Below are positions 5,232 through 64,000 of a stretch of DNA of 64,000 nucleotides, piece by piece; position 1 is the first letter of the stretch; each line of letters starts with the position of its first letter. A program made the translations under genes and the position numbers. Below the pieces are notes generated by a model, which had not been told where the DNA came from, ran no database searches, and worked only from the letters and a program-made list of their open reading frames with translations. Where the stretch lies: NCBI GenBank assembly GCA_963922205.1, contig CAWUHX010000140.1, forward strand, positions 858,582 to 922,581, in the 5' to 3' direction. This stretch comes from Romanomermis culicivorax. Its lineage: Eukaryota > Nematoda > Enoplea > Mermithida > Mermithidae.

Positions 5232-5235
5232 AGCT

Positions 5236-5712
5236 TGTTGAGGTGGGCTCAGGTGCACGTGTTCAGCTTCCGGCGTTGGTGCGCAGGCGGTTGGACGCGG
5301 CGAAAAGTGGCCGGAAAGAATGATATATTTGCATAGGTTTATGCTGCCACTGTTTCGCGTGTTTTCTGTCTTTTTGTCATTGTTAAAAAGACTTATTTTA
5401 TGGAGCGTCGCCGCCATCGTCTTGTTTATAACATTTTTATTTATTATTTGTTATTGGCGTCGCCCTTCGTCACCCAATACACTTTGGACCTGTAAGTGTA
5501 TTGTTTTGTGAGCGTAGTGGAAGGAGTCTTTAAGACTAGGAGTGGAGACTTGGGTAGGAACTCCTAAGGTACGTGCCAAGGTGTTCTGCCTGAGGTTTAG
5601 TGAAAGTTCTGGTGTATATCTGGTGAAACGTCTGCGAGAGTTTGGTGTTTGTTGTTGTTGTTAGCCTGTGGTTAGAACTGTTGCTTGATTGTGACCCCAC
5701 AGCTGCCTAACA
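5236..5712 (+). repeat. 5' LTR of element 1
   Basis: It starts TGTTGAGG and ends GCCTAACA. A TATA-like GATATATTT lies near 5313, a plausible U3 promoter element. A strong splice-donor-like AAG|GTACGT lies at 5566-5574 and is kept as GAG|GTACGT in the 3' LTR. A 63-codon hydrophobic frame (5320-5511) lies inside but is probably fortuitous. Confidence 0.95.
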
Positions 5713-5713
5713 A

Positions 5714-5731: not shown

Positions 5732-5796
5732 CTCTCACGACGGATAACCGGAGAACCACCAGAAAAATAACTAAACCTCCTGGGTTTTATTTACAG

Positions 5797-5820
5797 GCAC
5801 ATACCGGAAAAGTGAAAAAG
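5797..5820 (+). promoter_or_regulatory. Short gag leader after a possible splice acceptor
   Basis: TTTTATTTACAG ends at 5796, 24 bp before the gag ATG, and resembles a 3' splice site. Together with the donor at 5568/5569 inside the LTR it could define a leader intron (5569-5796). That splice would remove the primer-binding site, so it could serve translation only and not genomic RNA. This is inference from the splice signals. Confidence 0.3.
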
Positions 5821-8127
5821 ATGAGTATTCCGGTAGGAAAAATGTTGAGGACTCCTCCTAGGTCACACGAACCTAGTGTTTCGAATCTGGACTCTGCTGA
5901 AGAACACGCAGCGGTAGAAAAGGTTCAAGCACAGGCGCCTGAGACTGAAGGAAGGAGAGAGAGTGGAATTGCCGAAATGGCAAGAGTTGAAGAAGAGTTG
6001 AGGAGAAGTGGTTTTGAGATGGCTAGGAGAGCCGAGATTGAAACTACTGTAAGTGGTAGTGTCAGAGGTCAGCAGACCTTTGAGAAGGAGAGACCGACGT
6101 CGCCCTCGAAGTTGGTCCATCGGATGGCCGAGACGCTGGAGGAGATTAGACGGAAATCGAAACCGGCGTGGAGGTCAAACATGATGGACATGAATTACGA
6201 CGAATATTACGAGGACGCGCCGGCCGATTTATACGACGACAAATATTCGAGGCGATACGACCCCGAAATGGCGAATTTTATTCGGCGAGAGGAGCAGAGG
6301 GATCGAGTCGATCCCAAGGACGTACGAATTAACGCGCTGGAGAAGAAGGTCGAGTTATTGATCAAAGTAATCGAAAGCGCGCAGATCAAGGAAAAGGAAA
6401 CGGAGGATGATCAACGGAGGAAGATAGGTGAGTCTTCTTACCTTGAGAATAGAGTTGAGAGAGTAACTGAACCTAAGAGAGAGGTTCATTCAGAAGTTTA
6501 TGTCAGGTCTCAAGAGGACAGAGACAAATATTCGGCTAGAGATAGAGGTTGGACTGAGGAGCCGCAGAGTTCGAGGAATGCTGAACAAGCACAATCGAAT
6601 GCCTACGGTTACTCAGAGAATAGGAGATCAAGGGAAAGGAAGGTGACTATTTGCGATGAATCGTCCCAGGGAGAGGACAGGTTTTCTCGTCCCACTCCTT
6701 GGAGAGATACCGCAAATAGAGCTGACCTTAGCCCTGAGAGGAGAAGAAAGAGAAAGTCGAAGAGTCGAAAGAGATCTCACAGATCTAGAGCTAGAAGTAG
6801 ACATTACTCGGATAGTGATAATAGCAGTTCATCTACTTCGAACTCTAGCTCAAGTGTTGAAGTTGATGTGAGAGATGTGGTAAAGGCCTTGAAACATAGA
6901 CCTTTACATGATAGCATAAAGCCGACGGAGGCTTTGAAATTTTTTACTGATCTGGAAAGTGAATTTCTGGAGAATACGGCTGATAAAGTGAAAAAGGAGT
7001 GTTTGAGAAGGTTGTCTCAAAATACGGCGAGGAGGATAGCGAGAACATCCTCAAGTTATACAGAAGCGCGGAGAAATATTTTAAAGTATCTCGCGCCGAC
7101 TTATGATTTGACGATGCTCAAAAGAGAGTTATTTAATATGAAACAGGAAGAAGGCGAATCAGCCTTGGAGTTTTTAAAAAGGTTGAGTAATCATGTGGAT
7201 CTGGTCTATGCAGATCAGAGTGATCAAGTAAGGCAAGAGAATATTATTAATGCCTTCATTTATAAAAGTAGTCCGTTGTATCAGACGGAGTTGCAGGACG
7301 TATTGCCATCGATGAAAACTTGGCAAGACCTTGCATACGCCGTAACTCAGATTGATAAAAAGTATAAGAATGTTTTTACTACTTTTGGAGCCAAGGATAA
7401 ACCGATTGTAGTGAATCAAGTTGTAGCTACGGAGGAGATGTGCCCGGATATTGCTTTTGTCGGGAATGCTCCGTATGGAAGTACTAAAAAGTATAACCAA
7501 ACGAAGTCAAGACCACAAAATCAGTTGCAAAAGGCAGTGGAAGAGGAGAGAAGTGAGGAGAATGGGGAAGAGATGCTACCTGGTCCGTCGCCTCGTGATG
7601 TCAAAAAGTCTAACGAGGAGCAGGCCAAGGAGTCTTTTCTAGCTATTCTCTCAAAGGAGTGGCTACAATTGGTTCAGAAAGTAGATAAATTACAAGTTAC
7701 TCAGAGTGAAGCCTTAAAAGAGTTGACTACTGTGAAGGCTGCGTCTGCTGAAAAGCAGAAGCAGTTGAAGCAGCAGAGACCCTATTGCATTTATCATAAG
7801 AATAATACGCATGCTACGGAGGAGTGTAAGACATTAGCATACCGGCGTCAGCAACAGCAACGCGGTGGATTTAACCGTGGCATGCCTAATCAGTATTATG
7901 GTGGTGATAGAAACGCTTCATATAGAGGAAGTTTTAGAGGTAGAGGTGGACCTCAGTTTGGATTTAGAGGAAGAGGAAGAGGTGCCTATTATGTAGGATT
8001 CCCCGAAGAAGATCAAATGTACGGGTATGACCCAGAGTTTGAGAGATACAGGGAATTCTGCAGACTTAGGGAGCAAGGCATCCAGTTGCAGAGGCGAACC
8101 TCAGTTGATGTTACCTGCACCAACTAG
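5821..8127 (+). CDS. gag: Gag polyprotein of element 1
   Basis: 768 residues from ATG 5821; the open frame reaches back to a GTG at 5812, but the ATG is the likelier start. The protein should form the virus-like particle and bind element RNA. Residues 1-340 are charged and coil-like, with an Arg/Ser-rich basic stretch near 308-343 followed by a Ser tract. Residues about 350-520 form a helical, capsid-like Gag region. A zinc-knuckle-like motif C-x2-H-x4-H-x4-C sits at C656, H659, H664 and C669, a CHHC pattern rather than the usual CCHC. It is followed by an RG/RGG-rich tail ([14 protein letters not shown]) that probably also binds RNA. Pol overlaps the 3' end in the +1 frame. Gag of element 2 has the same layout, including the CHHC knuckle. 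Confidence 0.9.
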
Positions 8128-11100
8128 TCAACCTGCTATTCAGGGTAGTACCGTCCAGGATCAGTCTGGATCATTTGTTTCGAACCAGTCGCAACCTAGT
8201 TCGCATAACGTAATGGTGACAAGCCGTACGGATGTGGATGATGAAAGCGAGCAGAGTAGAAACAAATCTTCTAGTTTGGTTCTCGGAAGTATTATTCACC
8301 TGGATAAGGTGACACCTCTAGAGAAAGTGAAAGAAAGAGATTTGGCTCATGTGAAATATGGAAGAAGAGCAACGGACGTAGAGAGAAGGTTGTTGGAAAA
8401 TTATCCGAAAACGGTTCCTTTCTACATAAATGTGGTTATTAAAGAAACGGCTACCAGAGCTTTAATCGATACAGGAGCTCAGTGTACGGTCATGTCTTCT
8501 AAGCTCCTGAAAAGGGCATTAGACGTTGATTATACAGTGTACCCTCGTATCCTTAAAGTGACTGTAGCTGACGGAAAAGTTGTGCATGCCTATGGGTATG
8601 TACCAGTTTGTATGAAGACTGAATTCGGAAGTTTTCCAGTCAATGCTATAGTGTTGCCAGATGCAGGTGAGGACCTGATCTTGGGCACAGACTTTTTAGC
8701 ACACCCAGATTTAGGTGTGGTGATTGATTTCAAAAGGAATGCCATGACAATACAAGGCATTGAGAGAAAGATTGACGTAGTTCAAGTTCCTTCTGTAACT
8801 ACTGTGCAAACGGTAATGGAAGAAGTAACTAAAGTCAGTGTGGCGTCGACTGATTGCATAAATCAAATTGTTTATCCAAAAGTTTGTCTGCTAAAGACAA
8901 CTGTTGCAATTGTTGCATGTAGTAAAACCTACATTCCATATGGAACAGATGTTTTGATGAAGGCAAAACTTTGGGATCAACATGGAGATGCCACGTTGAA
9001 CGGAATTATTGTCGAATCAAAGGATTCTGAAAGGAAGTTCAGAATGGAGAAAGCGGTTGTAGACGGATCACAAGAAGAGTTTGTAGTACTAATCTCCAAT
9101 ACCACGGGTTCTGGATGTCGGTTTGAGAGAGATCAAATCATTGGCTATACAGAATCTATGCTTATTGAAGATGACGATACGTACAAGAAAGTGAAGGAAA
9201 TGAAAAAGATAAAGGAGGAAGAGGAATATCAGACCTGCATGGTAAAGGAAGGAATGCCTGCATTATCAAAAGCTGATTCTGTAGAGTTCTATACTTCACT
9301 ATGCAAGATGATATCGAAGGCGAAAATTTCGGAAGAGAAGAAAACGGAAGCTATAGAGTCTTTGTTGAAGTACAGAGATGTCTTTAGTTTGCCTGGTGAT
9401 CCGGCTACTACAACCCCAGCTCTGACATGCAAGATAGATACAGGAGATGCGAGACCTGTAGCAAAGAGATATTACAGAGCTTCAATTAATAGTCGGCCAG
9501 GAGTAAGGCGACATATAAAGGAGATGTTGGATCAAGGAGTGATCGAGCCCTCGAAGTCACCGTGGGCTGCACCCTTGTTCCTGGTTGGAAAGAAAGATGG
9601 AACTACGAGACCAGTAGTTGATTTTAGAGGTATAAACGAAGTGACCAAGGATGATAAATATCCCATCCCGAGAATGGATGACTATTTAGATTGCCTTGGA
9701 AGAGCGAAGTTTTATACGACTCTAGATTTGAAGTCGGGATATTGGCAGATCCCGATGGAGGAGGAAAGCAAGGAGAAAACGGCCTTTATATGCCAAGAGG
9801 GCTTATTTCAGTTTAAAGTGATGCCGTTTGGGTTAAAGAATGCACCTGCTGAATTCCAAAGGATGATGGAGAGAATCCTTGGGGATTTGGTATGGAAAAT
9901 TTGCCTAGTGTACATAGATGATATTATCATCTTCTCGAATACGTTCGAGGAACACTTAGAGAATTTGAACTTGGTGCTAGAAGCGTTGAGGAAGGCGAAG
10001 TTGACTCTTAAGCCAGAGAAATGTGAATTTCTTCCCGAGAAGGTGCACTTTTTGGGACACATCTTGGATGCGAATGGAATTTCTCCGGATCCTAAGAAGG
10101 TCAAGGCGATAACAGAATTTCCATTCCCAGATTCTGTTAAGAAAATGCAAAGATTCCTAGGTATGCTACAATGGTGTAAGAAATTTATACCGGACCTAGC
10201 AGCACTAGCTGAACCGTTGTATAAATTAACCGGCAAAAAGGGAACATGGAATGTAACGGAGTTACATTACACAACTTTTGAGAAGCTCAAAGTAGCATTG
10301 ACCTCAGTACCTTTCTTAAGACATCCAATTCTAGATGGATCTGCACGATTCATTCTTCAAACGGATGCCAGTGGAATTGCATTGGGAGCAGTGTTATGTC
10401 AAGAGACTGACTCGGAACGTTGGGTAGTTGCCTACAATAGTCGGATATTGCGGGCGGAAGAAAGGAAATGGTGCGCCACCGAAAGGGAATGCTTAGCTGT
10501 GGTTTACGGCCTTAAAATTTATAAACATTATCTTTTGGGCCAAAAGGTCAGGATTCAAACTGACCACAAACCATTATTATCAATGAGGGTGAATACACAG
10601 ACTAATGACAAACTCAAGAGGTGGTACGCATTCATTTGCCAGTTTAATCACAAGTTGGAGTACGTGCCTGGCAGACAAAATGCCATGGCAGATTTCCTCT
10701 CGAGGAAGGAGGAACCGGATGAGCAGAAAGAGAAGTTGCCACCAAAATGGGAGCTTATCTTTCAGAAAGAAGAAGTGAAATCTCTTGCTGAAGACGAAGT
10801 CCTTAACCAAAACCACAAAGTTTTAGTGAAACAACTTCGGGAACTCAGAGGAGATGAAGTGGATGAGGCTGTAGGAGTCTTCACTCCGGTGAAGATGGCC
10901 ACAGCTTCAGTGGCTTCAAAGTATAGTGTTAGTGATGAAACTCAACTTAATATTTCTCCAGAATTTGATAATTATCGAACGCCTGAGAAATATGAAATTG
11001 AGGCGGTAGTCACTAGACAAATGGCAAAAAACTTGCAGCAGGAGGAAAAAGGACATCCTCCTGGGCAAGCAAAACCTAAAGAAGAGGTGAAGAGAATATT

Positions 11101-12475
11101 TGAACCGAAGGAGAAGGAGTTTGAAGAAGCCCCAGAGATTGAAGATGGTAGACCGAAAGGGCTTATCTCAAACGCCTTGATGTCAAAGTTGCAAGGAAAG
11201 GATAAAGATCTAAAAGTGATCTTCGAGAAACTAGGTGCTAATAGTGGCACTAAGTCTCAAAGTAACTTTTATATCGATCAAGGGATACTATATAGAGAGA
11301 CTTTTGGCAAGGCAGAGGATCAAGTTGTTGTCCCCTCTGTTCTCAAAAAAGTTGTCCTACATCAGTATCATGGAGCAGTGATGATGACGCATCAAGGGTT
11401 TAAGAGAACCCTTGCTATTATCAAGAAGCGGTTCTGGTGGCCGAGCATCGAGAAGGATGTTCGGAGCTGGATCAGCTTTTGTCCCATATGTCAAATTGCG
11501 ACTCCAGGAAAGGCTACGATTCCGCCATTGAATCCAATCATTCCTAGAGGACCATTTGACATAGTCTCTGTAGATATTGTGGGAATATCTCCCATGAGTG
11601 AGAAAAGACCGTATGTGATAGTATTTCAAGATTACTTTACAAAATGGGTAGAAGCAGAAATGATCCCGGATCAATCTGCTGTAACCATTGTGGACAGTTT
11701 TCTTCGAAATATTGTGTTCAGGCATGGAACCCCAGTGAAATTGTTGAGTGATAATGGTTCATGCTTTACAGCTGATTTGATGACGTCAGTCTGTAAATTG
11801 TTGGAGTGTCAGAAGATTTTCACAACTGCCTACCATCCACAAGGAAATGGAATGGTTGAAAGGTTTAACCAAACCTTGATCAAGCAGTTGCGAAAGGTTG
11901 CTATAGAAGATTCAGATAAGTGGGACAGATATTTGCAATCTGTCGTTTTTGCGTATAATGCCACACCTCATACCTCAACAAAATGTTCTCCATTTGCCTT
12001 ATTGAGAGGTCATGAGGCTAATTTTGGCATCAGTATTGGTGTTGCTAGAAACATAGTTCTGCCAATGAACTATGAGGCTTATAAGCATATACTAACCGAA
12101 AGTTTAGTAGAAACTTATGAAGTCATTTCAGAGAATATCAGGAAGGCTGCGGAGAGCAGTAAAAAGTTTTTTGACCGTAAAGCAAAGGCTCATGATTATT
12201 CCGTCAATGATTGGGTTTTGCTGAAAGTCGATAAACAGAAAAAACTGGGTCTGCCGTGGCAAGGACGGTATGTTGTTACTGATAATAGGAGATTATCAGA
12301 GAATGTGCTTGAAATCGCTCACTGGAGAGAGCCGCTGAAAAAGCAGGTGGTATCCGTGAGCAGGTTAAAGCACTTTCGCTACGAGACCGGCAGATGGCTG
12401 CAGTCTAACGACGTGTCATCTAAGGACACGCAGTTTACTGTAGATTCAAAAATCAGTAATTATAAACTGCCGTAG
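8027..12475 (+). CDS. pol: Pol polyprotein of element 1 (protease, RT, RNase H, integrase)
   Basis: An open frame of 1482 codons in the +1 frame relative to gag, overlapping it from 8027 to 8127 and probably reached by frameshifting. Residue numbers count from 8027. The aspartic protease has LIDTGAQ with the catalytic Asp at 148. Reverse transcriptase has VVDFRGIN, then YIDD at about 629. RNase H has QTDASG near 780 and TDHKPLL. Integrase has a zinc-binding HHCC region near 1110-1160 ([14 protein letters not shown]) and a DD35E core at D1183, D1242 and E1278, followed by a GPY/F-like segment (LPWQGRYVV). The domain order is that of Ty3/Gypsy (Metaviridae). There is no stop or gap in any domain. 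A linker of about 200 residues rich in Glu and Lys separates RNase H from integrase. Confidence 0.95.
8065..8071 (+). promoter_or_regulatory. Candidate +1 programmed frameshift heptamer CTT-AGG-G
   Basis: In the gag frame, CTT (8065-8067) is followed by AGG and G. This differs only in the last base from the Ty1 +1 shift site CTT-AGG-C, where Leu-tRNA slips from CUU to UUA while the slow AGG codon waits. A slip here moves translation exactly into the pol frame, 56 bases before the gag stop. An alternative is AGG-C near 8091, also inside the overlap. The position and frame are seen; the use of the site is inferred. Confidence 0.4.
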
Positions 12476-12944
12476 CGCGTAGCGCTGTGTTTTTGTGTGT
12501 GTGTGCGTATGAATACCCCCCCATATTTTTTCGTCCCCAATTCTGTATTTAAGTACAAATTGTATTTAATTGTAATTATTTATGTATTTATCGCGTATTT
12601 ATTGTGTATTTTAAATTTTTCTCGCATAAATCTTAAAATTTCTCAAAATTTTTGGTAAAAAACCACTCTTCGCCAAAACCTAAATTTTTAAAACTTTTTT
12701 CGCGGCCTAAATTTTAAATTTCCCTGAGTCCGATTAATTTCGGAGGAAATATTTAGTTGTTGCCCCCCAATTCTGTGAATATTGGAAGAATTGGGAAAAC
12801 CGCTGAAGTTTTAGAGTGAAAATAGACAAAAAGTAGCGAAAGCGGAAAATTTGTCGATTTTTCAGCTCATATTAAACAAATTTAAAAAATTTTGCAAAAA
12901 TTGATAGCGCCGAATTAGTAGAATTCGAAAAAGAAGCGGAAGGA
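12476..12944 (+). promoter_or_regulatory. pol-ORF3 spacer with TTTTTCAG acceptor
   Basis: This AT-rich stretch has no coding frame. GATTTTTCAG|CTC at about 12856-12865 is a good 3' splice-site match 80 bp before the ORF3 start. It could receive a leader from the LTR donor at 5568/5569, as in env-type subgenomic mRNAs, or a trans-spliced leader. Element 2 has a similar ATTTTCAG at 61445-61452 in its pol-ORF3 spacer. Confidence 0.4.
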
Positions 12945-13056
12945 ATGTCCAGGCCCCCCAATGGACGCCGGACGAAGCAGTATCTGGTCACAGACCCCCA
13001 CGTGACCTACGGACAGCCGCAGGTGCGGCAAAACAATCGGTATTTTTTAGTCGATG
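12945..13056 (+). CDS. ORF3 of element 1, coding exon 1
   Basis: ATG 12945 opens 37 codons plus one base, ending at GTCGATG|GTAAGC, a good splice donor. The unspliced frame runs on to a stop at 13220, but splicing to 13764 restores a frame of about 1475 codons. The last part, with the motif GQPQVRQNNRYFLVD, is matched in element 2 by GQPQGRQNNRYFLTD. Both exons are exactly 112 nt and are cut in the same phase after the same Asp codon, which is the main evidence that this is real coding sequence. It has no signal peptide. Confidence 0.75.
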
Positions 13057-13763
13057 GTAAGCGACCTAAGTTATTAAACTTAGTTAATCTAAAAATTATT
13101 TGGGCAAAGCAGGATGTCATAGCCCACGGGTGTCTAGATGAAGGCCTAGACAATTGTAAAAGTTTAGTGGGAACATATTTGTTCTGTCAACTTGAAAAAG
13201 TGTGGCAAAGCTGCCCGTAGCGCAAAAATTTGGACTTTTTGCGAAACTACATTATTCCTCTACACACATAGCGAGTTGAATAAATTCGTCTATGTGATGG
13301 GGAAGAAGTGGAGTGTAGCAACTAGTCAACTAGGGGTAGATAATTTCAAAATTATTTAAATTTCTAAATTCCATCTTAATTTACTTTTCTACGAATTTCC
13401 ACATTTTGGGTAAATTAGTAAATATATTTTCAAATTTCTTCTTGGAAATTCTTAATTTATTGATTGGATAGGCCGTTTTGGGCGTTGGATTGAGACGGCT
13501 AGCAGTCGATTGATGGAAGACGCAGGTGGTCTGTGCGTGTACTCCCGTATAAGGTAGAAGTCGGGGCCGCACTTGTGTTTAACTACCTGCCAACACTAAC
13601 CCAATATATGTTTGGTACCTTATTTTCCCCTGCTTGCAATTTTCTTTTCTTCTTTCCTATTTGTGCTTACTATCTGTGGTGAAGGTAGAATTTAACCGAT
13701 GTTTGTCCGCTTTGGGAAAAATTTTCATTAAAAAGTTGTAAACATTTCGCCTGAATTTTTTAG
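13057..13763 (+). other. Intron inside ORF3 of element 1 (707 bp)
   Basis: The boundaries are G|GTAAGC and TTTTTTAG|ACTACAA. Element 2 has the same acceptor (TTTTTAG|ACTACAA) and a GTAAGT donor at the homologous site, with 623 bp between. The intron sequences themselves look unrelated in length and detail while the exon ends are conserved. Because the element carries the intron in its DNA, the genomic RNA must escape this splice, as retroviral genomic RNAs do. Confidence 0.75.
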
Positions 13764-16700
13764 ACTACAATGTTAAACGCATTGTCAGAGTCGGCGAATT
13801 AGAACGATGGTTTGCCACGACGTTCGGGAGATTTCCGTTGGAATTGACGGAACCGAAATTGGTCGAGGTAGGTAAGGTGGCTGAGATGGTGGAAACCTTG
13901 AAAGACAGTAGGTTTCGAGGACAGCCAGTTATCGGTTTTGATACCGAAAAAGTTACTCAAGAGTATGTGAGTAAGGTTTTCGCGACTTCTGGGGTTGATA
14001 ACCCAAAAGGGAAGGAGTTCGCGAGAGTCATTAGCTTCTCGACGGTAACTGGAGACACCTTTGTTGTAGATACTACGACAATCATGCCGAAGGAATGGAT
14101 GCTCATTCATAAGCTCTTAGATTCGGACATGCTTCTCGTTGGATACAACTTGGTTACAGATCTGGTTGCCGTCTGGAATGTTAATGGCGCAGGCAGAAAT
14201 CACCAGGATGTTGATCTGACAGCAGAGATCAAGTATAGAATTGCATCTTCGTATGGCCGTTATTATGACATAGCCAAGGTAGGGGATCAATTGAACGGAA
14301 GATTTTTGGCAATGTCCAGGAAGTTGGGACTTTGCCCAGAAACATTTAAGCTGAAAGGGTTGTTCACGGAGCTGTATCTGGCCGACGTTGGTTATTTCCA
14401 AATCGATTTCCGTCAGAGAGCGCAACGTGAACGATTCTGTAGGCACACGTTGACGCAGTTTGAAATCAGGTATTCAGCACTGGACGCCTACTACTCATTG
14501 TTGGTTTTCTTAGCGTTTTTCCACTATGAGTTAGCTATGGAAGTCGAGGTCGGATTCCAGTATTTTCCGCATGATTTGATGAAAGCGGATCAAATCCAGA
14601 TAATGTCGTACAGGTTGTACAGGTTTTTTAACATGATACATGGAGAGAATTTTTCGCAGACTTTTTGTGGAAGTCCGGAAGTAGAGGAGCCGCAGTCGTC
14701 GGCTATTTACCACGTAATGAGACAGGAAGCGTATGCCCGTATGGCTGCCCAAATGGACACCTCATTTGGAGGCTATGTGGAGTACAGCTTCCCTCATTAC
14801 GAGGCAAATCCGAAGAGAGGGAGAGACGTAAGTATACCTAAAGGTATTCATCCTGATTATACCGTTAAAGAAAAAAGTAAGAATGTAGACGGTAATGATA
14901 TGGTAAGTGAGGATGAAGAGTTCGAAGAAGCTTTGTCGGAAAAGCAGATTAGAACTCGAATAATGAACAAGGTGGTAGATATGGTTAATCGAGGGAAGAG
15001 TTTCAGTAGACTCGATGAACCAGTATCTATGGTTTTATACGAGAATTACCTAAGGTATAGGAAAGAAACGAAGCAGTTATTGGAGATACCATCTCTGGAA
15101 GTTGATTACCACGAGTATGAACCGGTCAGAGTTTCGAATGGTAAAGACTCGTATGTAAGGCAACACTGGAGTATGGATATCGCTCCTTATTCTGAAATAT
15201 TGATCGAGGACAATTTTAAGAATTTGGAGTCAGTGTGTAATAAAGTTCCGCTCACGTTTCATTTGTTTTGGCCAGCTTGTAGAGAGGAAGCGGAAGAGTA
15301 CCTTACCTCTCTCCTTGACCACAACTATTTGAGATCCTTTAGCCCTGAGGGAAAGGAGCAACTCTTGAAGATGTTGTGGAGGGGAGATAGGTACGGTCAG
15401 TACTTATCATTTTTGAATAGTCTTCCAGTAACAGAGGTACATACGCCAACCAAGGGCGATTCTATTACATGTTGGGGAAATCGTTTCGGATTTCTGCCGA
15501 TCCGATTTTGGCCCAAGACAAAATCATGGGAGCAAAGACCGGAAGATAAAAGGAAGCATTTGGTGGAGTGTCCGCAGTACAAAGATAATCCGTACTGCTA
15601 TCAGAGGTTTTATTTCCGCCAGATAGCTGTTAGAGTTCCAGGTTTGCGATACCCAATAGATATGAGTGAGGACGCAACGAAGGAGAACCAGAAAAAGAGC
15701 GTCTTAGCCTATCAACCGGAATACGTTCCAGGTTACGAGCCGCCATTTTTTGAACCGATATTGCCGTCCGATGCTCCAGGTTTTACGATTACGCATATTG
15801 GCGATAAGGTTGTAGTGACACCGACAGGTAAGCAGCCAGCAGTGCCGGTTACAGGCACTGAGGTAAGCACAACGGTGAGTCAACAATCTGGAGTTGATAT
15901 GAGTAGTTTGGATCAGGTGCAGGGGATGCAGGCTGAGCCTGTTGCGGCGAAAGCACAGCAACAGGTGATACCTGCAGACCTCAACACCCCCATAGACTTG
16001 AATCAGGTAGGAGACGATTTAGAAGTGGACAATGAGGTCACTGTTGAATCGTTGATACAGCCTGATCAAGAAACACAGGTAACTTCTTTACTAGATCAGA
16101 CAGAGAGTTTACTTTCTGGAATGGATGTCAGGGCAGAGCAGATGTTGGATGAAAGCAATCTGATAAAGATTGCTGCAAGCCCAGCAATAGAGGAAATTGA
16201 AGCAAGGCTCAGGGAGCAAGCTGAAAAGGAAATCGAGAGACAGAAAGAGATTTTTACTAAGCAGCTTGCGGAGCAGAAAGCGAGATTAGATCAGCAGCAG
16301 AAGCAGCTGGAGCTAGTATTGGCTGGTTTTACAGTGCAGCCGACGCCTCTGGCAGCGCCTACAGTCGTGCAAGCTCCAGCCAAGCCGCCTACTGCTTATC
16401 ATATCCGGAAATTGCCGGCGCAACCCGCTAGTACGCAGGTCATCCAGCCTGCGGTCAGCAAGGTTACGCCGACAGTTCAAGTAGCGCCCAGAGATCCAAG
16501 TATAGACGGTGGTATACCAGGTATGTATACTGCCGAAGAGGTCAGAAAGTTCAGAGCAGAAGGTCGTACGGATGATCAGATTAAAAGACTAGGAAGACGA
16601 AAATTAACCCGAAAGGCCAATAGGGCTAAGAAGAGAGAGGAAGAAGATGTTATTGAAATCAGTGATGGTGAAGGAGAACAGACAGGGAGTTCTACGTCTG

Positions 16701-18079
16701 TGGATTTGAAGTTTGCAGGATCTACAACTTTATTGACTGATTCAACCAAATCCAAGATGGGAACTACGCCGACAAGCCTGATGCCTGGAACCAAAAGTTC
16801 TACGAGTCAGGTGCAGTCGACGGTTGCTTCGGCTAAAGTACCTAGTAAATCGTCTGCATCTCAGGTAAGTGCAACGACGAAAAGTACTTTGGCTAAGCCC
16901 GTGTCTAAAGTCGATAAGACTTCTCAGCAGGACCAGAGCAGTGCTTCAGGGAAAAAAGTTGTTTCTAAACCCTCTACGTCGGAACCGACTAAATCGGTCA
17001 AGAGAAGTAGAGATAAGGAAGTAACTTTGGAGTACCTGAGTTCTGTTTTGAGAGACTACTGGGACGTCCATAAGAAGTTTCCCTTGGTGAAGGGAAGGAT
17101 AGATTTTTCGACACCGGAGGTGATCGAATTCTTTGCTCAGGATATGCCGGATGATAATAGGAATCAAATCATCTGGGCATTGGTGAACAATGGAGTAGAG
17201 GAGCTTTACGAGAACTACGGGGATCACTTTGATGTTCAAGGTGGTTTCCTGTATGATCATGTAAACGTTCCTGAGCCCATTTGGGAGTATATTTGGCTCA
17301 AGTTCATGCCAAATTGGTTTCATCATTTTGATGCGGAAATAGTGATGGCAGCCGTGAGATACTTATGTACCATGGTGTTGCTAAAGTTAGAACAACAGCA
17401 GTTGGGCCCGAGACATATTGGTGCAATTGATGCACGGGCCAAGTCATTTGTTACGGAAAGATATTATTCTATCTACCTGCGGGGAGAAGGTAGTACTGCA
17501 TTCAGGGAAGCGTATGCCAACCGAATGCAGGAACACCAACAAACTGCAGTAGATATGGCAGCAAAGAGAAGGTTGTCGGACATGGTTCAGAAATTTTCTG
17601 GTAAATTCCAGAAGGCCGAGGATGAGGAGGGGCAACCCTTCAAGATTCCAATGTTAACGGAAAGACAACCTAGGGATGCATCCAGGACTAGGAGCCAGCA
17701 CTCGCGACAATCGTCTCATTCGCAGGGTCGGCACCAGCCTGGAGTATTCAAATTACCGTATGCGAATCAACAAAGTCAAGGTAGGTCCACTACCTCAGCT
17801 TCAGGAGTATCTTCCGTAAGTTCCACTCAGGGCTCGTACCAGAGGGGAACTGGAGGGGGATATGGCCGGGGCTGGGGTCAGGGACAGGGTCAAGGTAGAC
17901 CCTTTAAGATGGTTAATCCGCAACCGTATAGAGGACAGGCGATGGGCGGACCCCCTCGTGTGGCCCAACCTCGAGGAGTTTTTGGGGGATTCCTCAGGGG
18001 TCGTGGAGCTCGAGGTGGTCCCTACCCTCGCCGTGGTAGCTTCCAATACGGCGGTTATGGTGGCGGCGGGCAACAATAA
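13764..18079 (+). CDS. ORF3 of element 1, coding exon 2: DEDDy 3'-5' exonuclease domain, low-complexity middle, RGG tail
   Basis: About 1437 codons. The frame is open from 13742 and has no convincing internal start near the 5' end (the first long-frame start is a TTG at 13838), so splicing from exon 1 is the likely way in. In spliced numbering, residues about 90-290 form a DEDDy exonuclease fold of the RNase D/WRN/MUT-7 type. Motif I is GFDTE (D97, E99), motif II is GYNLVTDL (N166, D170) and motif III is YSALDAYYS (Y274, D278); YYDIA lies between II and III. Residues about 440-680 form a second conserved region shared with element 2. Then come a Gln/Glu coiled coil (about 840-893), a Ser/Thr-rich basic stretch (about 1014-1120), a further folded-looking region (about 1120-1297) and an RG/GG-rich tail from about 1350. 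There is no membrane segment, so it is not an envelope protein. The exonuclease family is clear; the substrate is unknown. Confidence 0.85.
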
Positions 18080-18824
18080 TTTCATATAGCCGCATCACTT
18101 TTGGACCAAAATTCGTTATTTCGTACAAATTTTATTTCAAAAACATAAAAATACAAAAACACAAATAAAATACAAAATAAAAAAAAAATATATATTATCT
18201 CGTTTTATTGTTGCTTTAAATTTTGAAATTTTCTCGTTTCCGGTGCTCAAACATTGCCCGGCAAAATTTGTTATTTCCGTCCATCTTATTTCGGGCGTGT
18301 ATATAGCCCTCGTATTTTTCTTGTTTACTTTCAGGGCCTGAAAAAGATGAAGACGTGAAAATTTTATTCGCGTTTATAAAATTATTTCGTAAGTAGATAT
18401 TTGAAATATTTTATAGAAAATATTTTTTACTGAGTAGATTTGTATTGGACGGAGCGATGTGGCGAGCGGCCGGCCGGGGAGGAAGCGCACCTGGGGCACC
18501 TCATCACCGAGGTTGTAAAAACCAGGAAATGGGAGAAGAGGAACGGCGACGCCCCGGATCTAGGCACAGATCGACGTCAAAGTCCAGGCCGAACTACGTT
18601 CGTGATCGTTTCCGGTAGCCCGAAAGGGAGTGCCCTGCCGAATGGATTGGTCAAGGTCGCCGTCACCTGAAGGACCTGGTAGGGTCTGGATCACATCTTG
18701 GAGGGGGTAGCCCCAAAAATTTGTTTTCCGAGGGGAAAACTGTTATGCAGGCGGGGCCTCAGTATGAGACTCAGGCTGCAGAAAGGTTTTCACCTCCCGT
18801 TGGTCGGTTTTGAGGGCCGAGGGA
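18080..18824 (+). other. 3' untranslated region and polypurine tract of element 1
   Basis: 18080-18420 is AT-rich with poly-A runs. 18430-18780 turns clearly GC-rich and unlike the rest of the element, with a 76-codon frame (18440-18670) of unknown meaning; it may be a structured RNA element. A purine-rich GAGGGCCGAGGGA at 18812-18824 abuts the 3' LTR and is the best polypurine-tract candidate, though two C residues interrupt it. Confidence 0.55.
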
Positions 18825-19301
18825 TGTTGAGGTGGGCTCAGGTGCACGTGTTCAGCTTCCGGCGTCGGTGCGCAGGCGGTTGGACGCGGCGAAAAGTGGC
18901 CGGAAAGAATGATATATTTGCATAGGTTTATGCTGCCACTGTTTCGCGTGTTTTCTGTCTTTTTGTCATTGTTAAAAAGACTTATTTTATGGAGCGTCGC
19001 CGCCATCGTCTTGTTTATAACATTTTTATTTACTATTTGTTATTGGCGTCGCCCTTCGTCACCCAATACACTTTGGACCTGTAAGTGTATTGTTTTGTGA
19101 GCGTAGTGGAAGGAGTCTTTAAGACTAGGAGTGGAGACTTGGGTAGGAACTCCTGAGGTACGTGCCAAGGTGTTCTGCCTGAGGTTTAGTGAAAGTTCTG
19201 GTGTATATCTGGTGAAACGTCTGGGAGAGTTTGGTGTTTGTTGTTGTTGTTAGCCTGTGGTTAGAACTGTTGCTTGATTGTGACCCCACAGCTGCCTAAC
19301 A
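18825..19301 (+). repeat. 3' LTR of element 1
   Basis: 477 bp, the same length as the 5' LTR, with four substitutions in total, at about offsets 42, 224, 332 and 409. It is followed by the AGCT target duplication. The low divergence indicates a recent insertion. Confidence 0.95.
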
Positions 19302-19359
19302 AGCTGAAACATTCTTATTTTTTAAAATATTTTAATTGTCGGTTCTTTTATTCTGCTCT

Positions 19360-54643: not shown

Positions 54644-54661
54644 AGTGGTGGCTTCTGACAC
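54644..54661 (+). promoter_or_regulatory. Primer-binding site of element 2
   Basis: AGTGGTGGCTTCTGACAC follows the LTR end. The first part, AGTGGTGG, is identical to element 1 and the rest differs, suggesting a different or altered primer tRNA. Confidence 0.6.
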
Positions 54662-54737
54662 TTGCAATACGGAAGAGCGCAGAGTCACTCAAGGTGTCAC
54701 AAAACCTAAAGGTTTTTACAAAGACTTAGGGCTCAAA

Positions 54738-57700
54738 ATGTCCAAAAATACTGAGGATTTAGCCTCTGGTACGACCTTGCTGAGGACTCCGCCTGGTGTA
54801 AGGCATGATGAGTCGGATAAATCTTTCCCACTGCCCGTGGTATCTAATACTACGAGCAAGCGGAAAGGCTCCGACTCAAGTGCCATAAGCCAGCGGGCTG
54901 AGGTAAAATTGGACCCAGTAAGCGCTCCCACTTCCGTAGCGCCTATAATGGCCACTAATAATATCAATAATATGGCCACGGCAAAGGAACTATTGACTGC
55001 CGAAGATAGAGATGCTCAATTATTAGCGCCTATTGATAGAAGGCCGAAATTGGCCGAGGATCATATTGATCCGTTTGATCAATTTAGAGAGGAACGTTTT
55101 CGACGACCTCGACAGCGATTTGATACGTATCATCGCGAATACGTCAACGAAAATTTGGATAATATTCGGGACGATTACCGTCATGATCCACTGGACGATT
55201 TACGATTCGAAATGAGTCAAAAGGATGACGAAATTCGAAGACTAAATGTCAAAATTGACAAAATGGCCGATTCGATGGTCAGAGTCCAAGGACTATTGGA
55301 AAGATTCGTCCTGGAGCAAAAGGAAAGGGATATCCGAGTGAGTATGACTACAGACAGACCATTGCAAACTCAGGATATGTGTAGAACTTTGCCAACGACG
55401 TCTGCAACCTGTATTGCCAATGACCAAAGGTTACGGCAGATGGAAGCAGATGAGTCAGAGCAAAAGTTCACAGTCAAACCTGCTGTGAAATCAAAGGTTT
55501 CTACGGAAAAACAGGTAACTGAACCGCTTGCTGTTCGAGAACAAGCAAGTGACATAGTTGCTCAATTTTTCCAAGAGGCTGATGAGGAAGCAGCAGGTAG
55601 TCATAAGGAAAGCAAACATACTACGTCGAAGCACAAACGATCCAAAAAGTCCACACGAGGAAATTCATCAGATTCTGATGACTCCTCAGTGGATGGATTG
55701 GAGCCTACTGTGTCAGATATAGTGAAGGCTGTAAAGCCAAAGCTACTCCTCGATGACATGACTGAGACACAAGTTCTCAGCTTCCTAAATGATTTAGAGG
55801 CAGAATTTACTTCAGAAACTACTGATAAAATGAAGCTGGCTGCCTTACGAGCGCTTTCTAAGGGTGTACCGAAAGCTACTGCCAAAAGGTTCAAAAGTTA
55901 CGAAAAAGCCCGAAGAAAGTTGCTCAAAGTGCAAGCTCCAGATTCAAATGTCGGTATGCAAACAAGAGAGCTGATGAACATAAAGCAGGAATTTGATGAA
56001 GCTCCAGTGAAATTCCTCAAGAGAATTAGTGTGCTAGTAGATAGATTATATCCTAATAAGACCGAAGAGTTCAGAGATCGTTTCATAATTGATACCTTTT
56101 TGTATAAAGCATCTGAAGAGTATCAGATGGAGTTGCTAGATCAAAGAGAAAAGTATGAAACATGGCACAATTTAGCAGAGGATGTGCACAAGATTGATAA
56201 GCGGAACACAGCTGCTTATAAAAAGAGAGGAACTGCGGAGTCTCCAATTGTGATAAATGAGGTGACGATGGGTGAAGGGCAAGCTGAAGTGGCTTATGTC
56301 GGTAGAAATAAATTTGGCAATGCCCCACAAAGGCAGTTTCAAAATAAAGCTATGCGACAGCAGGCAAGGAGAGAGAAGCAAGCCCCGATCCTAGTGTCAG
56401 AAAAGAAGGATTCCGATACTTCTATAGAAGAGAATAACTCACAGGGGACTCAAATGGCTACTACTCCCCAAAAGGGAAAAGAGCCTGAGGAACCTAGCAG
56501 TGATTCTGTTCTAGCAAAGTTATCACAGGAGATTGCGAAGTTAGCTCAGTGTTATCAGGAGATAAGCCAAAAAACTGATGCTAAATTGAATGAAATTTCT
56601 GCCAAAGTTAATAAGGGCAAACCCCAAAAACCTGGTGGAAACGAGTTCAGGAAACCATATTGTCGATACCATAGAAATAATTCTCATGACACGTCCGAAT
56701 GTAAAACCCTTCAATGGAAAAATGCACAAGGACATAATTGGGATAATCGATATGGTGGAAACAGAGGTTTCAGGCAACAGTTTGAAGGCTTTAGAGGAGG
56801 ATATGTTGGCGGGAGCAGTAGAGGTGCTCATGCCGTAGGTTATTATGGTGATACTATGGATTATGATACTTATCAACGATTCATGGATTACCAGAATAGA
56901 TTGCAGAATGAGCAACTCTATATGGCACCACAACTGCCAGCCCCTAGCCAACAGCTGATGATCACAGCTCCCCCTCAAGGTCAGGTTCAAATCAGTAACC
57001 CTAGCCCAAGTGTGCAAGCCATTTCCAGTAGTCAACCATCCACGTCCAGTCAGACAGAGTTGGGATCTGCTGGAGGTGTTAATAGCATTGCCACTACGGG
57101 TCAAGGTGTTAGTGAGATGAAATGGCCTGGAGTATTGAAGTGTTCCATGATGAAAGAAGATTATTCAAAGGTTACGAAAGCGTTCAAGCATGGGTTAATT
57201 CCTAATCAGGAGGAACGATTAAGGTTTTCTAAATTTCCTCGAACTCTCCCATTTCACATTAATGTGACTGTATGTAATACTAACACCAAGGCTTTAGTGG
57301 ATACTGGTGCTCAGTGTTTGGTGATGTCTTCATGGTTTCTTAAGGAAGCCTTTGATGAAGAATATACCAGATATCCTGAGATACTAAAAGTCACTGTTGC
57401 TGATGGTGCAGTAGTACATGCACATGGTTACATACAATTCAAGATGCATTGTGAATTTGGAGTTTTCTTGGTGAAAGCCATAATCATTCCTAATGCGGAG
57501 GAAAATCTCATAATTGGAACGGATTTCTTAGCACATCCGGATGTTGGAGCAATGATAGATTTTGCTAAAGGTATCATGAAACTTAATGGAGTTGAGAAAG
57601 CTATAAGTGTTGTACCTAAAGATCATGCGAGTCATATACAAGCCATTGATTGTATAGGGGAAGCACCTATAGTACATTCAAGTCCTGAAGAGGATCAATA

Positions 57701-60467
57701 CCCCAGGATCTGCCAATTAGGTATAGTGGTTCCAGTGGTATCATGTACGAAGGTATACGTACCACACGGAACTGATGTGCTTATTAAGGCAAGATTATGG
57801 GAACGGTCATCTAAAACAGATCTCAATTGTTTGGTCATAGATGGAAATAAAGAAGAAAAGAAATTCAGAGTTGATAGCACACTGGTTGATGGTAAACGGG
57901 AAGACTTTGTTCTGATGATTTCGAATAATACGGGTTCCGGATGCCAATTGCAACCTAATCAGGTTGTAGGCTACTGTGACTCAATATTACAAGAAAATTC
58001 AGGAGTATCAGATGCACAAAGTACGAGTTGTGGGATATTTAGTGTTGAAGATAATTTTAATGCCACTCCCAGAATGTCCGTGCATGATGCATTGGCATTT
58101 AGGGAAGCGCTATATAAAATGATCTCCAAGGCTGATATCAATGAGGAATTAAAGGAAACAGCTGTAGCAAAACTGTCTAAGCACAGGGATGTTTTCAGCT
58201 TACCCAATGATCCCTTAACTACAACACCGTATCTTACGTGCAAAATTGATACTGGTAATGCAATGCCAGTGGCAAAACATTATTACAGAGCTCCCATTAA
58301 CCAAAGATCAGGGATTAGAGCTCAAGTCCAGGACATGTTAGATAAAGGAGTTATTGAACCCAGCAGGTCACCATGGGCTGCTCCACTTTTCCTAGTGGGA
58401 AAAAAGGACGGTTCCATGAGACCAGTTGTGTATTTCAGAGGTATAAATGAGGTTACTAAGGATGATAGGTACCCTATACCTAGAATGGATGATTATTTGG
58501 ATTGTCTAGGTAATGCCAAATTTTATACCACATTGGATCTAAAGTCTGGATATTGGCAAGTCCCACTTGAGGAGAGTAGCAAGGAGAAAACTGCATTTAT
58601 ATGTCAGGAAGGCCTATATCAGTTCAAAGTTATGCCTTTCGGACTTAAAAATGCACCTGCAGAGTTTCAGAGAATGATGGAGAGAGTGTTGCATGGTCTA
58701 GTCTGGAGAATCTGCCTAGTGTATATTGATGATATCATTGTGTTCTCCAAGACTTATGAGGAACATTTGGAGAATTTAGAGTTGGTCTTGCAAGCTCTTC
58801 GGAAAGCAAAGCTAACACTTAAACCGGAGAAGTGCGAATTTCTTCCAAAAAGTGTTCATTTTCTTGGACACATACTGGAGGAAAATGGAATCTCACCAGA
58901 TCCGAAAAAAGTGAAGGCTATTACGGAATTCGAATTTCCCAATAGCGTTAAGCGTATGCAACGATTTCTGGGGATACTGCAATGGTGTAAGAAATTTATC
59001 CCAAACCTTGCAAATCTTGCAGAACCGTTGTATAAGCTTACCGCTATGGGAAAGAAGAAGTTCCGAGCAACAGATGAACATCGCCAAGCATTTGAAAAAC
59101 TGAAAAAAGCACTCACCTCAGTGCCATTTCTATGGTATCCTGTTTTGGATGGAACTGCGGAGTTCATTCTCCAAACAGATGCCAGTGGAACCGCACTGGG
59201 AGCAGTACTTTATCAGAAGACTAAAGATGACCAATGGGTAATAGCCTATAGCAGCCGAATCCTTAAGGAAGACGAGAGGAAGTGGTGTGCTACAGAGCGA
59301 GAATGCCTAGCGGTTGTCTATGGTCTTAAAGTTTACCGGCACTATTTGTTTGGACAAAAAGTACTGATCAAAACTGATCATAAACCTCTTTTATCTATGA
59401 AAGTTAATACTCAAACTAATGATAAGTTGAAAAGATGGTATTCCATTATAAATCAATTTAATCATAGGTTGGAGTATGTGCCCGGTAGACAAAACGCAAT
59501 GGCTGATTTTCTCTCAAGAAAAGATGAACCCGAAGACGCTAATGACAAAAACCCACCAAAATGGGAATATGTCTTCAAAATTCAATTTCGTAATTTCGGA
59601 ACTCAAACCAATGAAATTGAAACCCAAATACTGGTACAACAATTTCAGAGGATGAGGGACGAAGAAGTTGAAAGTAGAGACGAAAAAATTGTCCCCGAGC
59701 AGACCAAGGAATTGACGGATATCCAGGAATTGACGGTAGGAAATGACAATATTGCACCAACTACCAAAGATGTATTGCAGAGCAGAAATGAAATGCAGAA
59801 GCTTACGGTAGTTGATGCAGTCACAACTAGAAGACAAGCAAAACTTCAGGATCAAAGTGCACAAAATCAAGAACAGGGTACATCTGTACCCAATGATCCT
59901 GAAAACATTGCTTGGCTTTTCCCGAATAGAGAAAAGGAGTTTGAAGAGGTGAAGGAAGGAGAAAAGGAAGAAAAGGATGATGATAAGATCGATTATCCAA
60001 TTGATCTAAATGTTATCGCTCAATTGCAAAAAGAAGACACTAATCTTACCCCAATTTGGGAAAGATTAGGGGTCAAAAGCACTACGAAGTATCATAGTGG
60101 ATTCTATGAGGATAACGGAGTTCTTTATAGGGAAACTGAGGGACGTGGCCATGATCAGATCGTGGTCCCGAATTCCCTCAGAGACAGCATACTTCACCAA
60201 TATCACGGAGCCGTTATAATGACACACCAAGGGTTCAAAAGAACTCTGGGTATTGTCAAACAGCGGTTCTGGTGGCCTGGCATTGAAAAAGATGTCAGAA
60301 ATTGGTTGAAGTTTTGCCCTGTCTGCCAAGTGGCTACTCCCGGTAAAAGCTCCATATCCCCATTGATACCCATTATACTTCGATATTGTGTCTGTGGACA
60401 TAGTAGGGATTGCTCCCTTGAGGGAACGTCGCCCATATGTCATTGTCTTTCAGGATTATTTCACTAA
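54738..60467 (+). pseudogene. gag-pol: Gag-Pol of element 2, single fused frame, cut off in integrase
   Basis: One frame carries both Gag and Pol; the likely start is ATG 54738 (frame open from 54645). The Gag part has a capsid-like helical region, a CHHC knuckle (C-x2-H-x4-H-x4-C in CRYHRNNSHDTSEC) and a short Gly/Arg tail. Pol follows without a frameshift: protease VDTGAQ at 57300, RT with YIDD at 58723-58734, RNase H QTDASG and TDHKPLL, and the integrase zinc region. RT shows VVYFRGIN where element 1 has VVDFRGIN, a GAT-to-TAT change at 58431 in a usually conserved Asp. An 11-nt deletion relative to element 1 near 60380 shifts the frame and ends the product at 60467, before the DDE core. 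Hence it is a broken copy. Confidence 0.9.
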
Positions 60468-61332
60468 ATGGGTTGAAGCTATATTGATTCCTGATCAGAC
60501 GGCTGAAACCATAGTGGATGAATTCTTAGAGCATGTGATATTTAGGCACGGTACCCCAAGAAAACTTCTTAGTGATAACGGATCTGGATTTAATTCAGAT
60601 CTTATGAAAGCAGTCTGTAAACTGTTAGAGTGCAGAAAAATTTTCACAACAGCATACCACCCACAGGGTAATGGTATGGTTGAGAGATTTAACCAAACTC
60701 TAATAAAGCAGCTGCGAAAAGTTGCAATTGAGGATAACAATAAATGGCCAAGGTACCTCAGTGCAGTGGTATTTGCATATAATGCCACACCTCACGCAGC
60801 AACAAAATGCTCGCCATTTTCACTGCTGCGGGGGCATGAAGCAAATTTTGGTATCAATTTCACTGCTGCTCTTAGAATAGTCATGCCTAATGACTATGAG
60901 GCTTACAAGTATGTTTTGGCTACCCATCTTACAAATTTGTACGAAAGTATTGCCGAAAACATACAAAAAGCCGCTAAGGACAGCAAGAAATATTTTGATA
61001 ACAAAATTAAAACTTCTGGTTTTAAAAATCAAGATTGGGTTCTGTTGAAAGTAGACAGACTGAAAAAATTGGGGTTACCTTGGCAAGGACCACATATCAT
61101 CATCGATGATAAAAGATTGAAAGACAATGTGCTCACAATAGCGCATTGGAATAACCCGCTTAAAAAGCAGGTCGTATCGGCAAGTAGGCTAAAACACTTT
61201 CGATACGAAGGTACCAGATGGTCTCGACACGAAATGTCGCAGGTCTTCCGGGATACTCCAGTTAACGCAACTGGAAATCCCGCCGAAACCGAAGATCATC
61301 CGGTCGTTATTTCTGTGTCTAAAAATTTTTAG
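60388..61332 (+). pseudogene. pol: Integrase catalytic part of element 2, out of frame
   Basis: It continues Pol in the +1 frame after the 11-nt deletion: SVDIVG (first Asp), LLSDNGSGF (second Asp), [10 protein letters not shown] (Glu), a GPY/F-like LPWQGPH, and the C-terminal [10 protein letters not shown] as in element 1. No further lesion is seen down to TAG 61330-61332. It would be expressed only by recoding. Confidence 0.9.
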
Positions 61333-61747: not shown

Positions 61748-61859
61748 ATGTCGAAATTAGGCGTTGCGCCTTTCGCGCGAAATTATTGCGCGCACGCCGA
61801 CCACATTAAGGCGGGCCAACCGCAAGGCCGCCAAAACAATCGATATTTTTTGACCGACG
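61748..61859 (+). CDS. ORF3 of element 2, coding exon 1
   Basis: ATG 61748, 37 codons plus one base, ending ACCGACG|GTAAGT. The length (112 nt), phase and final motif GQPQGRQNNRYFLTD match exon 1 of element 1, while the first 20 residues differ. This argues for selection on the protein and on the splice position. Confidence 0.75.
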
Positions 61860-62482: not shown

Positions 62483-64000
62483 ACTACAACATCAAGCATC
62501 TGGTCCGCATCGGAGAAATCGAACAATGGTTCGCCGGCGCGATGAGTTATTGGTCGCAGCGACCAATGGAACCCGAACGGGTTCACGGCGGCAACGTCGA
62601 ACCGATCCTGAAGCAATTGGCCACAAGCCAGTTTCGGGGGCTAGGCGTTGTCGGATTTGACGTCGAAAAGGTCAAGAAGACCGAGGTATGTATAATACCT
62701 TATAAGGTAGCGATCCAGAACCCGGAAGGGAAAGAGTTCACTAGGCTGGTGTCATTTGCACACATAGATGGTTCCAGCTTTGTGATTGACCTTACAACAT
62801 TGAAACCGCAGGAATGGGATCTTTTGATTTCATTCCTGGCATCGGTGGATCGTTTCTTGGTCGGTTTCAAAGTTGTGGACGATCTGGTTGCAATTTTGAA
62901 CGTCTAGGGATCCGGGTCAGGGGCCTCGGCTCATGATAAGACGAAAATTATACAGGCCCGTATACTCCAAGGATTTGGAAAATATTGGGACTGTGAAATT
63001 TGCTTCAGATTGATGACGGGGCCCATGACAAATCACGCTCGTGATTTAGGATTGTGTCCTGAAAACCTTGGGTTAAAAGGACTTTTCACCGAATTTTACT
63101 TGGCTGATGTCGGCAAATACCAATGCGACTTCGGTGACAAAAAGATTCGAGAAAAGTTCTTGGCCCCCAAGATTCAAGACACAGAAATTGTGTATGCTGG
63201 CCTGGACGCCTATTATTCAATTGCCATATTTTTAGGGTTCTTTCACTACGGGTTTTGCGGTGAATTGAGTGGGGTTACGGCAACGTACCCCCATGATATT
63301 GTATCGCCGGCCCAAGTGAAAACCTTGGCCTTCCGCTTTTATACGGTGTACTCTCAAGACCTAACGGGGTTCGAGGATCGAAACTTCGTAGATGAGAAGG
63401 ACATCGTAAAGAGGCAGTTGTTCAAGGTCTACCATATGATGCGGCAAGAGGTAATGGCCAGGTGGGCTACACAATTTCATAATGACTTGCCAGAATATTC
63501 GTGTCCTGCGGGTATTAAAAATCCCGCTAAAGCTACGGACCACACTTTACTGTCTGGGGTTTATCCCAAGGCGCTAAAAGCTGGTCCAAGCAAAAAGAAA
63601 ACAAATCAGTGGGAAGATGTAAGTGATCCGGAGGACATGGATACAATGGAACAACAGGTCAATAGGACAAACGAGGTGATAAACCGACTGCATACAGAAA
63701 TGTTGCAAGGGGTTTCATTTTTCAAATTGACGGATCCTGTAGATGTTGTATGGTATATCACAGCGGGTCTTGCCATGAATAAGACTCCTCGACAGGACTG
63801 GTCGAAGCAGCTTCAATCGTTTCAACTCGGAACGGACTGCTACGAACCAGTGGAAATCGACACCGGTATGGCTAAGTACGACAGGGACCACTGGATGGTG
63901 GACTTGAGGAATTACGAGCATGTCATGGACTCAACAAAGTTTCCTGCGTTGGAAAAGGCATGCAACCTAATTCCTCTACCATTCTTTGTTTTCTGGCCTC
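62483..64000 (+). pseudogene. ORF3 of element 2, coding exon 2 (DEDDy exonuclease domain, one stop, runs off the window)
   Basis: The frame from the acceptor is open except for a single TAG at 62905-62907 (codon 179). Beyond it the same frame continues without any stop to the window edge, about 364 further codons. In spliced numbering motif I is GFDVE (D97, E99), motif II is GFKVVDDL with Lys where element 1 has Asn (catalytic Asp 171 kept), and motif III is YAGLDAYYS (Asp 279). LGLCPENLGLKGLFTEF and HYGF continue the match to element 1, and the second conserved region (DRDHWMVD, FVFWP) is present. One stop in an otherwise clean frame suggests a recent loss, or readthrough. Confidence 0.8.

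Follow-up and report, generated by a model that had tools for sequence, protein, structure and literature searches.

Does the third gene of a nematode retrotransposon encode a nuclease and, if so, what would the element use it for? The question is raised by a 64,000-nucleotide stretch of Romanomermis culicivorax DNA (contig CAWUHX010000140.1; hereafter the window), which carries a complete Ty3/Gypsy-type element in which gag and pol are followed by a large third open reading frame (ORF3). An earlier note, made from the letters alone, had recognized in ORF3 the residues of a DEDDy 3'-5' exonuclease. We report here that ORF3 is linked to the DEDDy exonucleases by bridging relatives in the same genome, that it apparently contains an intron and that it bears a clear signature of purifying selection. 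Its product may be an RNA-trimming exonuclease made from a spliced message.

Relationship of ORF3 to the DEDDy exonucleases

The ExoI (D-x-E), ExoII (D) and ExoIII (Y-x3-D) motifs are all present and in order at the N-terminus of the large frame 3' of pol, as the earlier note had described: D60 and E62 (in GFDTE), N129-x3-D133 and Y237-x3-D241, numbering from codon 13763. Among the 30 best-scoring of 129 copies of the window family (family A), scored on the ORF3 domain, D60, N129, D133, Y237 and D241 are invariant and E62 is kept in 29, the remaining copy having K. The same D, E, D, Y, D set is found, with motifs in register, in the aligned sequences of A, D, F and B.

That these residues reflect common descent is indicated by other loci of the genome, which yielded 80 matches to PF01612. 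The 28 loci fetched around such matches comprise 23 of one family (family B) and five of a decayed third family (family C). Four of the five family C loci (L054, L055, L057 and L058) match the window ORF3 with 25-27% identity over 194-277 amino acids (E 3e-13 to 6e-16), and L055 (E 5.5e-8) and L057 (E 1.3e-7) lie above the PF01612 cut-off; an integrase stands upstream at L054, L055 and L056. Family B ORF3s match PF01612 more strongly (L001, 1.7e-13; L008, 1.4e-10) and, within the stretch examined, a pol matching that of the window lies upstream at 20 of the 23 family B loci (6 of 8 and 14 of 15). A profile of eight rows headed by the window sequence and built from window, D, F and C sequences without any of family B (profile A4) matched the family B profile with a score of 45.3 (E 2e-5, probability 77%), against a maximum of 22.1 in 60 column shuffles and 12.7 after reversal. 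The family B profile in turn found PDB chains of WRN (8e-6), a mut-7 homologue (7e-5) and Rrp6 (0.005). Because relatives above the cut-off thus link to the window ORF3, we take its homology to DEDDy exonucleases, through the family C and family B bridges, as established at the level of sequence; an RNase H-like exonuclease fold and catalytic activity are predicted for the domain.

A number of results weigh against this interpretation. On its own, the window ORF3 matches PF01612 with an E-value of 0.057 and 13.7 bits, below the curated cut-off of 23.6; the profile match anticipated by the earlier note therefore fails for the window sequence alone and holds through its relatives. A PDB search with the window ORF3 protein returned no match, and those with profiles A2 and A4 returned no exonuclease, only profiles that included family B finding any. 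A4 found no PDB chain and the window domain alone is below every cut-off, so that the geometry of the active site is putative. Fold predictions of the domain, from a single sequence and from three rows, reached a mean predicted local distance difference test score of 32.3 and 34.6, respectively, too low to be informative. Of the other relatives, L068 and L076 have sub-threshold matches to PF01612, whereas L078, L082 and L083 have none. Neither the window protein nor L055 had a match in NCBIfam, and a scan of viral contigs revealed no relative of ORF3.

Gene structure of ORF3

The stop-to-stop frame of ORF3 extends from 13742 to 18079 (1445 codons), and the earlier note had placed the gene at 13764-18079. 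The long frame stands; the gene, however, is predicted to start at 12945, with an additional exon of 112 nt and an intron of 707 nt, position 13764 being the exact exon boundary 3' of the acceptor-like TTTTTTAG. Joined, the two exons encode a predicted protein of 1475 amino acids with no internal stops. This structure is supported by the variation among the 30 copies, in which coding constraint is already seen 5' of the point where the long frame has its first in-frame ATG. The per-site ratio of nonsynonymous to synonymous differences in exon 1 is 0.19 in the spliced frame versus 0.58 and 2.77 in the other two, and the opening 120 nt of exon 2 give 0.09 versus 0.75 and 8.03, whereas the intron has ratios of 0.56-0.86 and 14-17 stops in each frame. 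The donor GGTAAG, the acceptor and the upstream acceptor-like TTTTTCAG are each kept in 30 of 30 copies. ORF3 thus apparently is an intron-bearing gene with a predicted splice at 13056/13764; that its splicing and expression are deduced from sequence is a point to be set against the function proposed below.

The distance between the reverse transcriptase (RT) and ORF3 was compared in 88 pairs: 87 fell at 4173-4250 bp and one at 3950 bp, and none was shorter by about 707 bp, from which it appears that the template RNA retains the intron. The upstream TTTTTCAG may be used as a cis or trans acceptor. A search for the SL1 family in which 50 of 149498 candidates were scored gave no match, and the controls likewise gave none. 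An alternative gene model, in which ORF3 would borrow the gag start by way of a donor shortly downstream, does not fit in phase and was set aside; the local exon 1 fits both the phase and the selection pattern.

Abundance and selection in the window family

ORF3 is abundant in the genome. Copy numbers are lower bounds, as only part of the first-look candidates were scored (129 of 3350, 111 of 8570 and 150 of 2256). A search with the ORF3 domain found at least 129 places, 92-100% identical, and 66 of the 129 scored copies hold the whole 1445-codon frame without a stop. The expectation in the earlier note that the ORF would recur in other copies of the family was borne out: ORF3 lies 3-6 kb downstream of the RT, on the same strand, at 88 of the 111 RT places listed. 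At least some of the 23 places without it perhaps reflect the use of lists of best-scoring matches. On three contigs, pairs of family A ORF3s lie on one strand 5.8-15.7 kb apart (C96, 400457/406236; C139, 222662/238379; C13, 1335922/1348313), suggestive of nested or tandem insertions.

In the 30 copies, the ratio of nonsynonymous to synonymous differences per site (pN/pS) is 0.095 for the DEDDy domain, 0.213 for the 500 ORF3 codons that follow, 0.551 for the last pol codons covered and 0.726 for noncoding upstream DNA treated as if it were codons. The choice of best-scoring copies on the domain itself lowers pN there, which counts against the first of these values; the 500 codons downstream lie outside the score by which copies were selected. 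Taken together, the sequences carry a clear signature of purifying selection on ORF3.

Constraint on ORF3 and integrase in family B

Family B allows ORF3 to be compared with the integrase of the same loci. Among the 21 loci aligned, 10 have a gapped integrase (L001, L002, L005, L006, L007, L008, L041, L042, L044 and L049), seven have none of these gaps and four were not assignable (L003, which has no integrase match; L004; L043, where the stretch ends; and L048). In all 10 gapped loci one gap removes about five residues of the integrase core, and in eight of them another removes three residues ahead of the region of the second active-site aspartate. Values of pN/pS for ORF3 and integrase, respectively, are 0.16 and 0.67 in the 10 gapped loci, 0.15 and 0.72 in the eight with both gaps, and 0.18 and 0.31 in the seven without a gap; in a five-locus subset picked by eye (L006, L007, L008, L041 and L044) they are 0.12 and 0.84. 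This pattern suggests that family B ORF3 was held by selection while integrase was not, and the gapped loci possibly represent a non-autonomous lineage selected for ORF3. Constraint on ORF3 next to a gapped integrase is consistent with an ORF3 activity independent of the integrase encoded by its own copy.

The contrast is not a clean one, on account of stops and of an excess of synonymous change, and it supports the function proposed below less firmly for that. One or two stops interrupt the ORF3 domain at four of the 10 gapped loci, and synonymous divergence in the 10 loci is 0.475 in ORF3 versus 0.188 in integrase. The choice of these loci by Pfam score, moreover, introduces the bias described above for the copies of the window family. 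In these family B loci, the synonymous divergence of ORF3 is 2.5-3 times that of integrase; in the five-locus subset, divergence at four-fold sites is 0.247 in ORF3 versus 0.074 in integrase and third-position GC content 0.57 versus 0.32. Overall nucleotide identity is similar along the loci (eight pairs; pairs with L003 differ upstream). The excess might stem from a bias in mutation, from recombination between elements or from selection at synonymous positions.

Three family B-type domain fragments of equal score were also seen on one contig (C158; 182213, 187991 and 193769) at an exact spacing of 5778 bp, which suggests a tandem array that includes part of an element.

Comparison with known elements and enzymes

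The earlier note knew of no LTR (long terminal repeat) element with this domain. Such elements have in fact been described: according to a 2017 study (PMC5408684), the LTR elements Juno1/Juno2 and Vesta2/Vesta5 of bdelloid rotifers carry DEDDy ORF3s that were acquired at least twice and are common to Juno/Vesta and the Penelope-like Athena elements, and a 2019 paper counts a DnaQ-like exonuclease among the well-known accessory domains of these elements (PMC6338049). Juno and Vesta resemble the window element in having gag, pol and a separate ORF3 with a DEDDy 3'-5' exonuclease-like domain. In the rotifer study, the pols of Juno, Vesta and TelKA all have a dUTPase between protease and RT, whereas no such family is listed among the Pfam matches of the window pol at E-values up to 10, and the DEDD residues of Juno/Vesta are changed to DEED, whereas the window ORF3 has D-E-D-Y-D (PMC5408684). 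The rotifer authors noted that ORF3s typically come from spliced messages, that the role of the captured enzymes was unclear and that there was no significant departure from neutrality (PMC5408684). By description, the window ORF3 differs in its predicted internal intron and in its purifying selection; the word "intron" is absent from the main text of PMC5408684. Terminons, formed by Athena Penelope-like elements, also are retroelements with an accessory DEDDy ORF (PMC5408684, PMC6431247) but differ in having a Penelope-like RT and in being endonuclease-deficient and telomere-attached. None of the titles listed in searches of open-licence PubMed Central text concerned a nematode LTR element that carries such a domain.

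WRN, the MUT-7 homologue, Rrp6 and RNase D (PF01612), matched by the family B profile or by L001, share the catalytic motif set with the window ORF3, which differs from these cellular enzymes in being a far-diverged retroelement gene that encodes about 1200 residues more. These additional residues gave no Pfam match that exceeds the cut-off and none that is env-like. Envelope-class Ty3/Gypsy elements have a third ORF 3' of pol, expressed from a spliced message. The window element is similar in its third ORF after pol and its predicted spliced message, but its ORF3 is a nuclease homologue rather than env-like. The kind of element is therefore already known from rotifers, and that of the window is a new, better-conserved example; what is new here is an intron-bearing ORF3, the co-occurrence of several diverged families within a single genome and the purifying selection.

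Proposed function and alternatives

With middling confidence, we propose that this is a gag-pol-ORF3 element whose third gene makes an RNA-trimming exonuclease from a spliced message, not tied to its own pol. The homology, the gene structure (as judged from conservation and the selection pattern), the purifying selection and the abundance all lend support to this proposal at the sequence level. The protein would begin with a DEDDy domain of the 3'-5' exonuclease type, continue with a long central part and end in an RG-rich tail that perhaps binds RNA. Unspliced full-length RNA would serve as gag-pol message and as template, and a spliced message joining exons 1 and 2, like env messages, would give ORF3, whose product might act in trans. 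It would trim or degrade RNA 3' ends, either in the maturation or protection of element RNA or in the removal of host small RNAs or their precursors. Catalysis, an RNA substrate, splicing in vivo and a benefit to the element are steps that we infer. It tells against the proposal that nothing in the sequence favours RNA over DNA as the substrate. The maturation of element RNA and the destruction of silencing RNA look alike at the sequence level.

The main rival is an action of ORF3 in the particle on DNA, whether trimming of cDNA 3' ends prior to integration or removal of mismatches (proofreading), which we hold to be unlikely, if the least so of the alternatives. According to PMC5408684, single-stranded DNA can be a substrate of DEDDy and DnaQ-like relatives, among them WRN and the proofreading subunits of polymerases, and WRN is the best match of the family B profile; the RG-rich tails of gag and ORF3 could, in addition, bring both proteins to one RNA. 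ORF3 is, however, a separate gene rather than fused to the RT, which makes strict proofreading less likely, and it is kept under constraint at family B loci with a gapped integrase, even if the protein might still act in trans in the particle.

A more specific version of the RNA-trimming proposal, to which we would give slightly less credence than to an action on particle DNA, is that the deeply diverged, intron-bearing exonuclease is a trans-acting anti-silencing factor, destroying small RNAs of the host or their precursors, and that selection in family B, where the gene persists in copies with an integrase released from constraint, bears on a shared counter-defence product, not on replication of the own copy.

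Somewhat more doubtful still is that the domain lacks catalytic activity, as reported for Maelstrom and EXD1, and binds nucleic acid in the packaging or localization of RNA. The high divergence of the domain (PF01612 E-value of 0.057) would agree with this, as would the inactive RNA-binding derivatives of DEDD proteins mentioned in PMC5408684; but the D, E, D, Y, D set recurs in aligned A, D, F and B sequences and is near-invariant in the 30 copies, whereas Maelstrom is described without the catalytic set in PMC7968707. It is very improbable that ORF3 replaces env and serves cell exit or entry despite its exonuclease-type domain: its position 3' of pol and spliced message resemble env, and the idea was raised, and doubted, by the rotifer authors in PMC5408684, but ORF3 has no env-like Pfam match and its C-terminal 130 amino acids are Gly/Gln/Arg-rich. 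Equally improbable is a coincidence of motifs in an unrelated protein, for which the weak single-sequence score and lack of a direct PDB match might speak, against the family C bridge, an A4-B score twice the best of 60 shuffles and motifs in register.

Returning to the proposed RNA-trimming exonuclease, whether captured accessory enzymes benefit retrotransposons is a question that becomes testable here in an abundant, young family, because its DEDDy ORF3 occurs in many copies, shows a conserved arrangement of intron and exons and is under purifying selection. Should the protein indeed counteract silencing by small RNAs, it would represent a rare case of an animal-type transposon that encodes a counter-defence enzyme.

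Other features of the window

The element spans 5236-19301 in the order gag-pol-ORF3, as determined by LTR comparison and Pfam. The earlier note had it as young and complete, and rightly so: the two LTRs differ at 4 of 477 positions and the insertion is flanked by an AGCT duplication. The TG/CA ends of the LTRs, the short target duplication and the pol order of protease, RT, RNase H and integrase are those of Ty3/Gypsy elements, and stretches resembling a primer-binding site and a polypurine tract are present (Table 1). The gag and pol of the window copy are in two overlapping frames, and one gag-pol frame of about 2258 codons is found at many of the at least 111 RT places elsewhere in the genome.

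Table 1. Coordinates of the two elements and their predicted genes in the window
Feature	Position	Strand	Remarks
Target duplication AGCT	5232-5235 and 19302-19305		4 bp, both element flanks
5' LTR	5236..5712	+	477 bp, TG...CA ends
gag frame from first ATG	5821..8127	+	RG-rich tail
pol	8027..12475	+	Pfam: aspartic protease, RT, RNase H, integrase (H2C2, rve)
Acceptor-like site TTTTTCAG	12858..12865	+	79 bp 5' of exon 1 ATG; 30/30 copies
ORF3 exon 1 (predicted)	12945..13056	+	112 nt, starts ATG, phase 1 end GATG/GTAAGC
ORF3 intron (predicted)	13057..13763	+	707 nt, GT...AG (GTAAGC ... TTTTTTAG)
ORF3 exon 2 (predicted)	13764..18079	+	
DEDDy 3'-5' exonuclease-like domain	13863..14540	+	Limits approximate
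DEDDy codons	D 13940, E 13946, D 14159, Y 14471, D 14483	+	
C-terminal Gly/Gln/Arg/Ser-rich tail	17687..18076	+	8 RG pairs in 130 amino acids; perhaps binds RNA
3' LTR	18825..19301	+	477 bp; purine-rich tract directly upstream
Second related Ty3/Gypsy element, gag-pol in two frames	54645..61332	+	pol pieces 58% and 69% identical
Second element, ORF3 exon 1 (predicted)	61748..61859	+	112 nt, phase 1, donor GACG/GTAAGT
Second element, ORF3 exon 2 (predicted)	62483..64000	+	DEDDy motifs, one internal stop, ends at contig end

The ORF3 of the second element is 36% identical to the first over 509 amino acids; its exon 1 is homologous, the position and phase of its intron are the same and its exon 2 opens with ACTACAAC after GATTTTTAG. 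Two copies of this element give a pN/pS of 0.27 over 397 codons, one stop excluded. In a further family, that of L083, ORF3 is 26% identical to the window ORF3 over 352 amino acids and exon 1 is weakly recognizable (E 0.096), the long frame opening at the same residues, DYNV.

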